Shown: positions 1,762 to 22,122 of the stretch, piece after piece
How the letters are laid out: each line of letters opens with the position of its first letter
Numbering within the stretch: the first letter of the stretch is position 1
Origin: an uncultured bacterium
GTDB lineage: Bacteria > Verrucomicrobiota > Kiritimatiellia > CAIKKV01 > CAIYGI01
Reading direction: 5' to 3'
NCBI GenBank assembly: GCA_903925685.1
Contig: CAIYGI010000100.1
Location: 1 to 32,812, forward strand
Length of the DNA stretch: 32,812 nt
Position numbers and translations under genes: made by a program
Notes under the pieces: model-generated
Told to the model about the DNA's origin: nothing
Databases searched by the model: none
What the model saw: only the letters and a program-made list of their open reading frames with translations

Positions 1762-1794
1762 GAGTTAATCTAAAACCTGGCTGGAGGAATGATC

Positions 1795-2634
1795 ATGAGC
1801 GATTCGGATGGGGTGCTGCTGCCGCATGGCGGCTATGAGCACTTACGGAGTTACAAGGTGGCCGAGGCGGTTTATGACGCGACCGTGGTTTTCTGCGACC
1901 GTTTCATTGACAAACACTCGCGCACTCATGACCAGATGGTGCAGGCGGCGCGCAGCGGCGTCCGCAACATCAGCGAGGGTAGCGGCGCGGCGGCGACTTC
2001 GCGAAAGAACGAGATGAAACTCACAAATGTGGCGCGGGCCAGCCTTTCGGATGAATTGCTCAAGGATTACAAAAGCTTTCTGATCCAGCGGGGACTGCGC
2101 GTCTGGAACAAGGATGCACCCGAGGCGCTGGAGATGCGCGAGCGGCTGAAACACGATGTCGCGCCCGATCTGCCGACGGCGCCGGAAGGAACAGTGCGGT
2201 TGACCGGACTGGCGGGGTTATCGGAGTATATGGCCAAGGCCGAGCCTGAATTGGTGGCCAACGCGATGCTGTGCGCCGTGAATCAGGCCGCCTACCTGCT
2301 GAAGCGTCAGATCGAGAGCCAGAGTCGGGAATTTGTCGAGCATGGCGGGTTCACCGAGCGGCTGTATGCGGCGCGGGTGAAAGCGAGGGAGGCGGGGAAG
2401 TCGGACGGGGCAGACAAGTCAGACAAGTCAGACAAGTCGGACATTCCCGTTTGCCCGCTTTGCGGCAAGAGCATGCGGCGGCGTACCGCCAGGCAGGGGG
2501 TACATGCGGGGCAGGCTTTTTTGGGGTGTTCAGGGTATCCGGAGTGCAGGGGGACACGGGCAATGTCAAAAGAGTCGGACGAGTCGGACAAGTCCGACCG
2601 GTCTGACTTGTCTGACCAAGGCGCCAATATATGA
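1795..2634 (+). CDS. Four-helix-bundle suffix-domain protein with C-terminal topoisomerase-type zinc ribbon
   Basis: Start chosen at 1795 (MSDSDG): GGAGGA at 1783-1788 lies 6 nt before it, whereas ATG 1789 would abut the SD. About 279 residues. The N-terminal ~120 residues match the 23S rRNA-intervening-sequence four-helix-bundle family (VQAARSGVRNISEGSG, then helical KLTNVARASLSDELL). A region resembling the 'four helix bundle suffix domain' follows. Near the C-terminus CPLCGKSM...FLGCSGYPECRGT is a C4 zinc ribbon like those at topoisomerase I C-termini. Two Ser-Asp-Lys repeat tracts flank the zinc ribbon, encoded by the 9-bp repeat. The family may have a nucleic-acid role, but the true function is unknown. 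It converges with tsaD, leaving a 9-nt gap. Confidence 0.8.
   Translation: MSDSDGVLLPHGGYEHLRSYKVAEAVYDATVVFCDRFIDKHSRTHDQMVQAARSGVRNISEGSGAAATSRKNEMKLTNVARASLSDELLKDYKSFLIQRGLRVWNKDAPEALEMRERLKHDVAPDLPTAPEGTVRLTGLAGLSEYMAKAEPELVANAMLCAVNQAAYLLKRQIESQSREFVEHGGFTERLYAARVKAREAGKSDGADKSDKSDKSDIPVCPLCGKSMRRRTARQGVHAGQAFLGCSGYPECRGTRAMSKESDESDKSDRSDLSDQGANI
2401..2442 (+). repeat. In-frame 9-bp repeat array 1 of the four-helix-bundle gene
   Basis: Units TCGGACGGG, GCAGACAAG, TCAGACAAG (twice) and TCGGACATT encode SDGADKSDKSDKSDI directly before the zinc ribbon. The array ends in GACATTCC, as does the tonB array. Confidence 0.9.
2575..2618 (+). repeat. In-frame 9-bp repeat array 2 of the four-helix-bundle gene
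   Basis: Units TCGGACGAG, TCGGACAAG, TCCGACCGG, TCTGACTTG and TCTGACCAA encode SDESDKSDRSDLSD at the extreme C-terminus, after the zinc ribbon. The unit is more diverged than in array 1, but the Ser-Asp codons are kept. Confidence 0.85.
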
Positions 2635-2643
2635 ACGCTCTGG

Positions 2644-3696
2644 TCACCCGAATTCGATGCTGGGGCAGGCATCCAGGGCCAGGCTTTCGCTGAGGGTCGG
2701 CGGCGTCGCTAGTTTGTGCGCGGCGAGGCCGGCCACCATGGCGGCGTTGTCGGTGCAGTAGGCCGGTTCGGCGAGCAGCAGGCGAAAGCCGCGCTCGGCG
2801 GCGGCGGCGGCGAGCAATTCGCGCAGGCGGCGGTTGAGCGATACTCCGCCTGCCACAACCAGTGTTTCGTTGCGGCCCAGCGCCGTCAGTGTGCGCGTCA
2901 CCAGTGTGTCTACTATGGCTTCCTGATAGCTGGCCGCCAGATCGGCCACACCGGGGTTCCCGTCGCGGCCTGGTGGATACTTGCGCAGATGGTAAAGCAG
3001 CGCCGTTTTTATGCCGCTGAAACTGAAGCAGGCGCTGGGATCGACGTCGTCCGCGAAGCGCGCATGTAGTTTGCGCGGAAAGCCGCGCGGGAATATCACG
3101 GCGCCGGGGTTGCCGCCTTCGCGCGCGGCGCGGTCGATCGCCGGGCCGCCGGGATAACCCAGGCCGAGCAACGAGGCGCCCTTGTCGAAAGCCTCGCCGG
3201 CGGCATCGTCCACGGTTTGTCCAATCAGGCGGTAGCGGCCGGGGGCCTCGACATGCAACAGGAGGGTGTGGCCGCCGGAGACGATCAAGGCCAGGCAGGG
3301 CATGACGCTTTCCCAGGCGGGGGCCTGGAGTCCGAGAAAGGCGGAGTAGAGATGCGACTCCATGTGGTGAATGCCGATCAGCGACCGGTCGAGGCGCAGG
3401 GCCAGACCTTTGGCGGCGGCCAGGCCGACGAGCAGACTGCTGGCGAGTCCGGGTCCGTAGGTGACGGCCAGCGCGTCGAGTTGGGACCACTCCAATCCAG
3501 CGCTGCGCACGGCCTCGGCGAGCACGTCGGACAGATGTTCGACATGCTGCCGCGAGGCGATTTCCGGCACCACGCCGCCGTAGGGGCGGTGCGCGGCGAT
3601 CTGACTGTGGACGATGCTGGAGAGCACCTCGCGGCCGTCACGCACGACCGCGGCGGAAGTCTCGTCGCAGGAAGTCTCGATGCCAAGGATGTTCAT
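2644..3696 (-). CDS. tsaD: tRNA N6-threonylcarbamoyladenosine synthase catalytic subunit TsaD
   Basis: TsaD (YgjD/Kae1/Gcp) transfers the threonylcarbamoyl group from threonylcarbamoyl-AMP to A37 of ANN-decoding tRNAs, working with TsaB, TsaE and TsaC; none of these is in the window. The sequence shows the ASKHA-fold start MNILGIETSCDETS, the metal-binding HMESH at residues 111-115, SGGHTLL and SFSGIKTALLYHLRK. The length of 350 residues is typical. The ORF track begins earlier (3741), but that extension is encoded by a heptamer repeat; ATG 3694-3696 gives the canonical N-terminus. There is no clear SD (CCTCCCCGC precedes the ATG). It is the last gene of the ilv-leu-aroE run, separated from aroE by 48 nt of repeat DNA. 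Confidence 0.95.
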   Translation of the reverse strand: MNILGIETSCDETSAAVVRDGREVLSSIVHSQIAAHRPYGGVVPEIASRQHVEHLSDVLAEAVRSAGLEWSQLDALAVTYGPGLASSLLVGLAAAKGLALRLDRSLIGIHHMESHLYSAFLGLQAPAWESVMPCLALIVSGGHTLLLHVEAPGRYRLIGQTVDDAAGEAFDKGASLLGLGYPGGPAIDRAAREGGNPGAVIFPRGFPRKLHARFADDVDPSACFSFSGIKTALLYHLRKYPPGRDGNPGVADLAASYQEAIVDTLVTRTLTALGRNETLVVAGGVSLNRRLRELLAAAAAERGFRLLLAEPAYCTDNAAMVAGLAAHKLATPPTLSESLALDACPSIEFG

Positions 3697-3706
3697 TGCG
3701 GGGAGG

Positions 3707-3768
3707 TCAGAAAGCGGAAAGCGGAAAGCGGAATTGTTCACTGTTTACCGTTCACTGTTCACTTCTGA
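3707..3768. repeat. Two adjoining 7-bp tandem arrays bounded by an inverted repeat
   Basis: AAAGCGG occurs three times at 3711-3731. It is followed by TTCACTG, TTTACCG, TTCACTG and TTCACTT at 3737-3764. The whole block is flanked by GTCAGAA (3707-3713) and TTCTGAC (3762-3768), perfect inverted 7-mers. It fills the aroE-tsaD junction and reaches into the aroE 3' end, encoding its last residues and its TAA stop (3745-3747). Confidence 0.8.
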
Positions 3769-6706: not shown

Positions 6707-6717
6707 ATCATTTCTCC

Positions 6718-6766
6718 GAACGCAGAACATCGAACTCCGAACACTGAACACTGAACACCGAACACT
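6718..6766. repeat. Seven-unit 7-bp tandem array between ilvB and ilvH
   Basis: Seven contiguous heptamers: GAACGCA, GAACATC, GAACTCC, GAACACT, GAACACT, GAACACC, GAACACT. They occupy nearly all of the ilvB-ilvH gap. The unit resembles, but differs from, the GAACAGT-type heptamer at the aroE end. Confidence 0.85.
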
Positions 6767-19144: not shown

Positions 19145-19241
19145 GTTGCCGTTCTTTCTTCCCCGGTCTTTCCGTCCGCGTTTGGGCACTGCCAACGATG
19201 GTACGACCGCCCGGCCTCGACCGGGAGAAGGAACGCACGGA

Positions 19242-21173
19242 ATGAAGCTACAACGGAAGATACGTGTTAGGAACGCGGGATTGTGCCTGGCCGGTTTGAT
19301 GGCCGCCTGGATGGGGATTTCCCAGGCCACGGGGGCGGAATCGAACCCGGCGGCTGCAAGCAACAACCTGTCGCGCGCGAATACCAACCAGTCGGCGCCG
19401 ATCGTGGTCACCGCCACGCGCCTGTCGATGCCGATGAGCGATGTGGCCAGCGCGATCACCGTGGTGGAGCACGCGCAGATCGAGGAACACGAAAACCGCA
19501 ACGTGGCCGAGGTCTTGCGCGGGGTGCCGGGGCTGACCATAATGCAAAGCGGCGGACCGGGCGGCACGGTGTCGCCCTTCATTCGAGGCGCATTGCCGGA
19601 GCAGACGCTGGTGCTGTTCGACGGCGTCAAACTCAACGATCCGATCAATGTCGGACGCGGCGTCGATCTATCGCAGATCATGCTGACCGGCGTGGATCGC
19701 ATCGAGGTGCTGCGCGGACCGCAAAGTCCGCTCTACGGTTCCGATGCCATCGGCGGCGTAATCAACATCATCCCCGGCCGCGCGGAAGGGCCGGCCAAAC
19801 TGACCCTCCAGGCCGAGGCCGGGTCGTTCGATACCTTCGCCGAATCGGCGGGGGTCGCCGGCAGCGAACGCGACGTACACTATGCGGCGGGCGTTTCGCA
19901 ATTCGACACGGCGGGCATCTCGCGGGCCGACAAGGCCAACGGCAACAGCGAAGCGGACGGCGACCACACCACCACGCTCTACGGACGCCTGGGCTGGACG
20001 CCGCGCGACGAGTTCGCCCTCGATGCCAACGTGCGCTGGATCGACGGCAAGTACCAGTACGACGATTACGATTTTGCGACCGGCCTGCCGGTGGATGCCA
20101 CCAGTTGGGCCGACCAGCAGAACCTCCTGTCGCGCCTTCAGGGCCGTCTAAGTCTGATGGAAGGCTGGGATCAGCGTCTGGGTTTCAGCATCGCCGACAA
20201 TCATCGCGACGATCACACGATCCTGGGTTCGTCCACCTTCGACAGCCAGTGGCGTAAAATCGACTGGCAGCACGACATCGTGGCGGGGCCGTACAACACC
20301 ATGACCGCCGGGCTGGAATATCAGGACGAGCGCGGCCGTTCACGCTACGAGAGCGCGGGTTTGATCGACGAATTTGCCGAACAAAGCCAGCACACGACTT
20401 CGTTGTTCGCCCAGGATTGCGTCAAGGCGGGCGCCGCCGCCGCCGCCGCCGGAGTGCGCGTTGACGATACCTACGCTTTCGGGTCCGAGGCCACCTATCG
20501 CGTGGCGCCGCAATATACGGTCAGCAGCACGGATACCCGCTTCAAGGGCAGCTATGGAACGGGCTTCAAGACGCCCTCGCTCTTCCAGTTGTATTCGAGC
20601 TACGGCAACCGCGGCCTAAGCCCCGAACACAGCGCCGGTTGGGACGCAGGCGTCGAACAGGGCATCGCCGGCAAGTTCGCGACTGTCGGCGCAACCTGGT
20701 TCCACAACGACTTCCGCGATCTGATCGATTACGACTATCTGGCGAACCGCTACGACAATCTGGGGCATGCCAGTGCCTATGGGGTTGAAACCTTTGCCGA
20801 GATCCATCCATTCGAAATCTGGACCCTGCGCGCCACCTACACCTACACCGAAACGCGCGACGAGACGACCGACCTGCCGCTCCTGCGCCGGCCGAAGAAC
20901 CAGGCCGGGCTGGAGAGCACCTGCGCCTTCACGCCGCGGGCGCGCGGCACGCTCAACCTGGCCTACGTCGGCGCGCGTCGCGATCTAGTCGGCGCGGGCG
21001 ACATCACGATGCCGTCATACACGACCGTAAACCTGCGCGGCGAGTACGATCTTACCCGCTGGGTCACCCTCTTCGCGCGGGTCGAGAATCTGTTCGACGC
21101 CCATTACGAGGAAGTTTACGGTTACGGCAGCCCCGGCATCGCCGCCTATGGCGGCGTGCGGATGGTATTCTAA
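19242..21173 (+). CDS. btuB: TonB-dependent outer-membrane receptor, BtuB-like (cobalamin)
   Basis: Imports cobalamin or a corrinoid across the outer membrane. The signal peptide spans about 1-31 (NAGLCLAGLMAAWMGISQATGA), followed by a TonB box-like APIVVTATR (52-60). A plug domain follows (EVLRGVPGLTIMQSGGPGG, EVLRGPQSPLYGSDAIGGVINI), then a 22-strand-type barrel ending in the C-terminal GGVRMVF with terminal phenylalanine. 643 residues is close to BtuB. ATG 19242 is chosen because it begins the signal peptide and AGAAGGA lies upstream; the ORF-track start (19053) lies before the terminator. Specificity for B12 is inferred from the riboswitch. tonB follows after 8 nt. Confidence 0.92.
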   Translation: MKLQRKIRVRNAGLCLAGLMAAWMGISQATGAESNPAAASNNLSRANTNQSAPIVVTATRLSMPMSDVASAITVVEHAQIEEHENRNVAEVLRGVPGLTIMQSGGPGGTVSPFIRGALPEQTLVLFDGVKLNDPINVGRGVDLSQIMLTGVDRIEVLRGPQSPLYGSDAIGGVINIIPGRAEGPAKLTLQAEAGSFDTFAESAGVAGSERDVHYAAGVSQFDTAGISRADKANGNSEADGDHTTTLYGRLGWTPRDEFALDANVRWIDGKYQYDDYDFATGLPVDATSWADQQNLLSRLQGRLSLMEGWDQRLGFSIADNHRDDHTILGSSTFDSQWRKIDWQHDIVAGPYNTMTAGLEYQDERGRSRYESAGLIDEFAEQSQHTTSLFAQDCVKAGAAAAAAGVRVDDTYAFGSEATYRVAPQYTVSSTDTRFKGSYGTGFKTPSLFQLYSSYGNRGLSPEHSAGWDAGVEQGIAGKFATVGATWFHNDFRDLIDYDYLANRYDNLGHASAYGVETFAEIHPFEIWTLRATYTYTETRDETTDLPLLRRPKNQAGLESTCAFTPRARGTLNLAYVGARRDLVGAGDITMPSYTTVNLRGEYDLTRWVTLFARVENLFDAHYEEVYGYGSPGIAAYGGVRMVF

Positions 21174-21181
21174 TAGCTTTA

Positions 21182-21976
21182 ATGCAACGCAGGCGACAAA
21201 TCGAAATGGCGGCCGGTTTGGCCCTGGCGCTGCACGCCAGCGCCGCGGTCACAACCATAGGGTATGCCCGTTTCTGGACGCGCCATTCGATGACCGCGCC
21301 CGAGGTTGCGCCGCTAACGATGGAATGGCTGGCGGTGGCGCCGGACGTGCCTGACAAGGCGGGGGCGCAGGCGATCGCCGCCGCGCGCCCGCAAGCTGTA
21401 GCGCCGCCGCCTCCCGCTCCCGTGAAGCAAGCGGCGCCGGTAGCGGTTCCGCCGCCGCCGGCAGTTGTAGCGTCCGACAAGTCCGACAAGTCGGACAAGT
21501 CGGACAAGTCGGACATGTCGGACATGTCAGACAAGTCCGACATTCCATCAAGCGAACCCACGCCTTTTCCGGAAAAGGCCATGGCAACCGCATTCCCGGC
21601 TGGGGCAGGGGCAGTGCCGGATGCAGTCGCGGAGCCTCCTTCAACCGCCAGTGGCTCCCTGCCGACGGCCACGCCTGGTACAGAGGTCCATGGTTCTGCC
21701 GCTCATGGGCCGTATCCCGTGGCGCTGGCCGATATTCGTCCGCGCTATCCGCGTTCCGCGCGCTTGCAGGGCAAGGAGGGGCGGGTGGTGGTGTGGGCGG
21801 TGATTGATGAGACCGGACATTCCGAGCGCCTGGAAGTGCGTGAGTCGAGCGGGCAGCCGGCGCTTGACGATGCGGCGTTGGACGCCGTGCATCGCGCGCG
21901 TTTCCGCCCCGCCACGCGCGATGGCATACCGGTGGCGGGCGAAATCCGCCTGCCCTTCGAGTTTCGCCTGAAGTAA
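21182..21976 (+). CDS. tonB: TonB-family energy transducer with a Ser-Asp-Lys repeat in its linker
   Basis: Couples the inner-membrane proton gradient to the receptor. A TM anchor (about 9-26, MAAGLALALHASAAVTTIG) is followed by a Pro-rich segment (PPPPAPV, VPPPPAVVA). About 23 residues of SDKSDK-type repeat come next, encoded by the 9-bp array. A variable linker leads to the TonB C-terminal domain (about 175-264; RPRYPRSARLQGKEGRVVVWAVID, RARFRPATRDGIPV). The linker of TonB must span the periplasm, so a tandem repeat here changes its length and charge. There is no SD; the 8-nt gap from btuB suggests coupling. ExbB/ExbD are not in the window. Confidence 0.88.
   Translation: MQRRRQIEMAAGLALALHASAAVTTIGYARFWTRHSMTAPEVAPLTMEWLAVAPDVPDKAGAQAIAAARPQAVAPPPPAPVKQAAPVAVPPPPAVVASDKSDKSDKSDKSDMSDMSDKSDIPSSEPTPFPEKAMATAFPAGAGAVPDAVAEPPSTASGSLPTATPGTEVHGSAAHGPYPVALADIRPRYPRSARLQGKEGRVVVWAVIDETGHSERLEVRESSGQPALDDAALDAVHRARFRPATRDGIPVAGEIRLPFEFRLK
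21473..21541 (+). repeat. In-frame 9-bp repeat array in the tonB linker
   Basis: Seven full nonamers plus six bases: TCCGACAAG (x2), TCGGACAAG (x2), TCGGACATG (x2), TCAGACAAG and TCCGAC. Encodes (SDK)4(SDM)2SDKSD. The third base of the Ser codon varies, while Asp is always GAC. It ends GACATTCC, as in array 1 of the four-helix-bundle gene. Confidence 0.92.
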
Positions 21977-22046: not shown

Positions 22047-22122
22047 GGCGGCGTAGCTCAGTTGGCAGAGCAGAGGAATCATAATCCTCGTGTCCGGGGT
22101 TCAAATCCCTGCGCCGCCACCA
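22047..22122 (+). tRNA. tRNA-Met (CAU)
   Basis: A complete 76-nt cloverleaf: acceptor GGCGGCG/CGCCGCC, D-loop AGCTCAGTTGGCAGAGC, anticodon arm GAGGA-ATCATAA-TCCTC with CAT, T-loop TTCAAAT, and an encoded CCA. The elongator Met type is favoured; the CAU anticodon could also belong to a lysidine-modified tRNA-Ile2, and lack of the initiator C1-A72 mismatch argues against fMet. The 3' end is 3 nt from the stop of the convergent oxidoreductase gene. Confidence 0.93.

Follow-up and report, generated by a model that had tools for sequence, protein, structure and literature searches.

The tonB gene of an uncultured bacterium of the Kiritimatiellia carries a tandem nonamer that encodes repeated SDx triplets in the periplasmic linker of the protein. 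The question raised by this locus is whether the tract serves TonB, its length being tuned by slippage as originally predicted, or whether it came from elsewhere. It was addressed in the stretch of 32,812 nucleotides that contains the gene (the window), in the genome as a whole, in a congener and in wider sets of genomes.

The nonamer array in the TonB linker

The tonB gene (21182–21976, forward strand) encodes 264 residues that comprise an N-terminal helix, a Pro-rich linker and a TonB_C domain. The protein matched TIGR01352 (73 bits) and, at residues 186–263, PF03544 (79 bits, cut-off 24.6). The helix was assigned by hydropathy only, which averaged 1.5 over the 19 residues of the hydrophobic segment. 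The linker measures 154 residues, of which 18% are Pro. A gene for a BtuB-like receptor (19236–21173) sits just upstream of tonB, and a tRNA-like sequence with a CAT anticodon (22049–22119), recognised by eye only, lies directly on its 3′ side.

Analysis with TRF returned an array of period 9 with 7.9 copies and a score of 100, the highest of the 36 rows obtained for the window. The array (21472–21543, forward strand) is 72 bp long and consists throughout of 9-bp units, eight in all, of a type denoted A (GTCNGACNN). These are in frame with tonB and occur in the order GTCCGACAA (twice), GTCGGACAA (twice), GTCGGACAT (twice), GTCAGACAA and GTCCGACAT. The translated tract, SDKSDKSDKSDKSDMSDMSDKSDI, is preceded by APPPPAPVKQAAPVAVPPPPAVVA. 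Lag-9 identity in tonB reached 55/60 in the best comparisons, against a maximum of 36 among 5000 codon shuffles of the gene. The TRF score and the PF03544 match confirm that the tract is encoded by repeats and lies inside the TonB linker, as had been proposed. It is not the pure (SDK)n originally described, however: SDK units are present, but two units encode SDM and the last encodes SDI, giving (SDK)4(SDM)2SDKSDI.

Unit number was compared between species, with one genome for each. TonB of the congener (G001) is 81% identical and carries SDKSDE at the same site, corresponding to two units against eight here, and the gap of 54 bp in the alignment is exactly six units. As anticipated, unit number had changed without a frameshift; the repeat was neither invariant between the two species nor missing from all close relatives. 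Each unit is three codons, so that a change in unit number keeps the frame, and the array is not a phase-variable frame switch. Earlier in the linker, a lone nonamer-like unit (GTGCCTGACAAG, 21347–21358, forward strand) was found by alignment with G001, which has the mini-array VSDKTDISDKSEE there, longer by 18 bp (two units). Since G001 is shorter by 54 bp at the array and longer by 18 bp at the mini-array, units have been gained or lost in frame. The whole linker measures 140 residues in the congener. The SDxSD motif was found in TonB of this genus only, and in none of the other TonB proteins examined from the class.

The cassette and other sites of the nonamer

Three further occurrences of the nonamer in the window, which the original prediction had overlooked, were all found at a single gene (1789–2634, forward strand). 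This gene encodes a four-helix-bundle protein with a TIGR04258 suffix domain and a Zn_ribbon_Top1 domain, and is the home gene of the type A nonamer. An upstream array of ~4.8 units occupies 1718–1760, an intragenic array (KSDGADKSDKSDKSDI, 2400–2445) lies in the linker between the suffix domain and the zinc ribbon, and a downstream array (2565–2616) encodes the C-terminal tail SDESDKSDRSDLSD and adjoins tsaD. All three are on the forward strand and were identified by both TRF and the genome pattern. The cassette thus extends from 1718 to 2616, 19 kb from the tonB array, and its outer arrays, upstream and downstream, pair in the predicted RNA fold (z = −3.2). It is placed between an HTH/IrrE gene (416–1660) and tsaD (2644–3741), not within a 23S rRNA. 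The product of the former gene combines an HTH with an IrrE-like (Peptidase_M78) domain, and this neighbour of tsaD differs in the congener.

The cassette protein scored 70 bits against TIGR04258 (cut-off 40) and 39.5 against PF01396 (cut-off 32). Against the S23p families it scored 24.1 for TIGR02436 (cut-off 24) and 22.6 for PF05635 (cut-off 33.8). The best Foldseek matches of its predicted model were 2gsc, an S23p structure from Xanthomonas (target TM 0.84, probability 1.00, E = 0.22), and 2rld, with all E-values at least 0.2. No transposase domain was found in the protein with Pfam or NCBIfam.

The search was extended to whole genomes, most of them draft assemblies, with array counts resting on pattern searches; a reversed control pattern gave no matches in the genomes searched. 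In this genome, TCNGACNNGTCNGACNNGTCNGACNNGTC had exact copies on this contig alone, where they lay at the cassette and within tonB. Looser patterns added the C-terminal tail of NusB, an HsdM-like methylase gene and one further site, and the nonamer is in frame in both the NusB tail and the HsdM-like protein. In the congener, the sites were NusB and the 3′ side of tsaD. Arrays in the NusB tail are common to the two species, with differing sequence and length. At the 3′ side of tsaD, an array–gene–array arrangement here is matched by an array without a gene in G001; this is no clean empty site, because the gene beyond also differs (HTH/IrrE here, gyrB-like by sequence there). With the nonamer present in NusB, in the HsdM-like protein, at the 3′ side of tsaD and at the four-helix-bundle gene, TonB is one of several places in which it has landed, which speaks against a length-tuning device specific to TonB.

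Tandem arrays at S23p-type genes across genomes

Of the 193 genomes of the class, 133 contained TIGR04258; all 14 control genomes lacked it. Within the class, 18 arrays of 9 bp were found in 12 of 37 TIGR04258 loci, compared with none in 44 tonB or tsaD control loci. A set of 80 named TIGR04258 loci included Verrucomicrobia, Lentisphaerae, Kiritimatiellaeota, the Geobacter and Desulfo- groups, Chlorobi, Chloroflexi, Planctomycetes, Nitrospirae, Acidobacteria and candidate phyla. At these loci, 36 arrays (25 loci) were near the gene, against three in 1.6 times more flanking DNA, and periods of 6, 7, 8, 10, 11, 12 and 15 showed no comparable enrichment. Lag-9 pairs at TIGR04258 loci had a density of 7.76 per kb versus 0.96.

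Four unit cores were distinguished at TIGR04258 genes: GTCNGAC (A), GATCNG (B), CCTAT (C) and GGGA (D); the type B counterpart of the type A array unit is GATCNGNNN. In the type A core, the palindromic GTC-N-GAC is conserved while the two spacer bases vary. When core labels were placed on a tree of 76 proteins (196 columns, gappy linkers removed), five changes were needed, where the minimum is four and the shuffled mean was 35.1. Clades A, B and C each cover several phyla. On the columns compared, two genes of the class sample coincide fully with those of named Kiritimatiellota records (L045 = L199, L066 = L233), which makes an origin of the window in Kiritimatiellia probable. The match between clade and core is partly explained by shared descent of gene and array, since many arrays lie inside the genes. 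The core stays constant while the spacer bases are free, within coding sequence as well as outside it, and this hints at something beyond shared descent.

Across 58 genomes, array sites lay within 700 bp of a four-helix-bundle gene in 11 of 50 cases for type A (0.06 expected) and 25 of 65 for type B (0.07 expected; sites of G034 and G057, which were incompletely listed, excluded). As a single gene can bear more than one array, these counts do not represent independent events. At the level of whole genomes, the presence of type A arrays was not significantly related to having such a gene (9/10 versus 33/48, P = 0.26). Type A arrays were present in genome G020, in which no four-helix-bundle gene was detected. 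In G034, ~20 type A arrays were spread over many contigs, often as inverted pairs ~10–30 bp apart, and lay far from its two four-helix-bundle genes; more than 50 matches to the type B pattern also occurred there, with only these two genes found. This pattern looks like a burst of gene-less arrays. Phages gave no match to four-helix-bundle genes. Among the matches listed for a plasmid collection, only a 568-kb replicon of Prevotella nigrescens has the four-helix part, the others being matches to the zinc ribbon.

The related S23p family TIGR02436 has 18 matches in this genome, partly overlapping with seven to TIGR04258, and is present in 37 of 39 relatives. Its loci were enriched in lag-7 pairs (4.63 per kb versus 1.02, Fisher P = 1.6 × 10−4) and not in lag 9. 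All 18 TIGR02436 cassettes from this genome and G001 (L318–L335) had arrays of 7 or 8 bp at the gene, and in 17 of them the downstream array was the reverse complement of the upstream one, with a median of 11 shared 9-mers in inverted orientation, none in direct orientation and none against other loci. A looser threshold for inverted arms had separated same-locus from cross-locus pairs poorly, and longer words and tonB controls were used: at least three shared 9-mers were reached by 17/18 cassettes and by 1/28 tonB controls. Inverted arms were also seen in 21 of 27 TIGR02436 loci from other genomes. Arms of this kind would form a long stem with the ORF in its loop, and the RNA of one cassette was indeed predicted to fold in this way (z = −5.9).

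One of these cassettes follows a hemB-like gene, recognised by sequence without a family search, and its left arm encodes the end of the upstream protein. The cassette is intact here, while in G001 most of its gene has been lost and both arms are kept (L337:23–2453 versus L338:1–2846). This gutted gene with its arms shows how gene-less arrays can arise. A search for a clean empty cassette site in G001 yielded this flank, with gutted gene and both arms, and a second flank without a match.

Origin of the tonB tract and related systems

Given the shared unit, we consider it very likely that the tonB tract belongs to the repeat family of the cassette. The tract is probably a gene-less, in-frame array of this dispersed 9-bp repeat, tolerated in a disordered linker, and it seems likely to be a near-neutral passenger in that permissive segment. 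A short array would have been seeded in the tonB linker of the genus ancestor, and would later have grown via slippage or unequal recombination. It may well have persisted because its unit of 9 bp is three codons, because the SDx frame contains no stop, and because a charged, disordered SDx peptide would do no harm in a periplasmic linker rich in Pro, just as in the tail of NusB. More tentatively, the four-helix-bundle protein might recognise its own repeat, either as DNA or as an RNA stem of complementary arms, and such recognition might help the repeat to persist or spread. Active spreading or maintenance of arrays by the protein is conceivable from the sequence patterns, though we lean slightly against it. 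More broadly, S23p-type proteins might constitute widespread transposase-less, repeat-associated elements, each clade recognising and propagating its own tandem repeat (7–8 bp for TIGR02436, 9 bp for TIGR04258), with seeded arrays rewriting disordered host segments such as those of TonB and NusB; this generalisation is put forward tentatively and is rather doubtful.

A short seed at the site is common to the genus, and slippage lengthens short arrays, so the tract could instead be an unlinked microsatellite, expanded locally from a chance SDKSDK-encoding seed in tonB and unrelated to the cassette repeat. This is unlikely, as the 7-bp core and the free positions of the tonB unit (GTCNGACNN) are exactly those of the cassette, and cassettes in other phyla show this core and these free positions too. 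Nor would it account for the lack of enrichment of lags 6, 8, 10, 11, 12 and 15 at TIGR04258 loci, or for the absence of matches to the reversed control pattern. Alternatively, the arrays could be recognition sites, on DNA or mRNA, through which the four-helix-bundle protein regulates tonB, nusB and other targets. The conserved palindrome with its varying spacer bases, the agreement of core type with protein clade, and the predicted folding of the arms into long stems are all consistent with such sites. However, the arrays lie in the tonB linker and the nusB C-terminal tail, not upstream, and the genes that bear them have no common function, making regulation an improbable explanation. Selection on tonB unit number, with slippage adjusting the reach of TonB across the periplasm, is very improbable: although the unit is a multiple of three, differs in number between species (eight versus two) and lies in the linker, the nonamer also occurs in the NusB tail, the HsdM-like protein and non-coding sites, TonB linkers of the class vary from ~78 to 161 residues (where both ends could be placed) without a nonamer tract, and the mini-array in the same linker changed in the other direction, so that the two linkers differ by just 14 residues overall. 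The passenger array most likely has almost no effect on how TonB functions.

The cassettes share features with several known systems. In REP-RAYT systems, the RAYTs are Y1/HUH transposases and the REPs are single palindromes. As in those systems, the repeats here flank their own gene, have gene-less copies elsewhere and show lineage-specific pairing with the protein; unlike them, the repeats are tandem and the cassette protein has no transposase domain in Pfam or NCBIfam. The STRR heptamers of cyanobacteria are likewise dispersed short tandem repeats, but we know of no gene partner for them, whereas gene and unit core are paired here. The intervening sequence (IVS) of Coxiella burnetii 23S rRNA contains an S23p ORF preceded by tandem heptamers, GACAGAT, in strain-dependent number; S23p-type proteins are described there as being without a known function (PMC4990558). 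The likeness to this IVS lies in an S23p-like four-helix-bundle ORF enclosed by a predicted stem-loop. In contrast to it, the present cassettes stand by themselves between protein-coding genes, occur in multiple copies and have tandem-repeat arms with units of 7, 8 or 9 bp. The window protein also has two further parts, a suffix domain and a zinc ribbon, and arrays without a gene are found inside other genes. Among known cases of repetitive DNA lying in frame within genes, the closest are the Rickettsia palindromic elements, selfish DNA of ~150 bp inserted in frame in protein-coding genes (PMC10969869). Both involve repetitive DNA in frame in unrelated housekeeping genes, but the present unit is a tandem repeat of 9 bp that is associated with a cognate gene, and the tonB array measures only 72 bp. 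In literature coverage that was partial and took in few subscription journals, no paper was found joining four-helix-bundle genes to tandem arrays in general, and nothing relevant was found on TIGR04258 or on repeats in Kiritimatiellae.

The clade-specific pairing of protein and repeat makes a role for S23p-type proteins testable, by asking whether the protein binds its own repeat. The pairing also offers an origin for tracts of low complexity in conserved proteins, (SDK)n among them, and warns that a protein is not necessarily tuned by a repeat tract lying in its functional linker.

Arrays of shorter period were observed in the window as well. Adjacent heptamer arrays of GAAAGCG (3.4 copies) and TGTTCAC (~4 copies) occur at 3703–3763, between tsaD and the next gene, and have the appearance of TIGR02436-type arrays without a gene. 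A further heptamer array, GAACACC/GAACACT, lies at 6714–6765 between the genes for the large and small subunits of acetolactate synthase. The window heptamers match the kind found at TIGR02436 genes.
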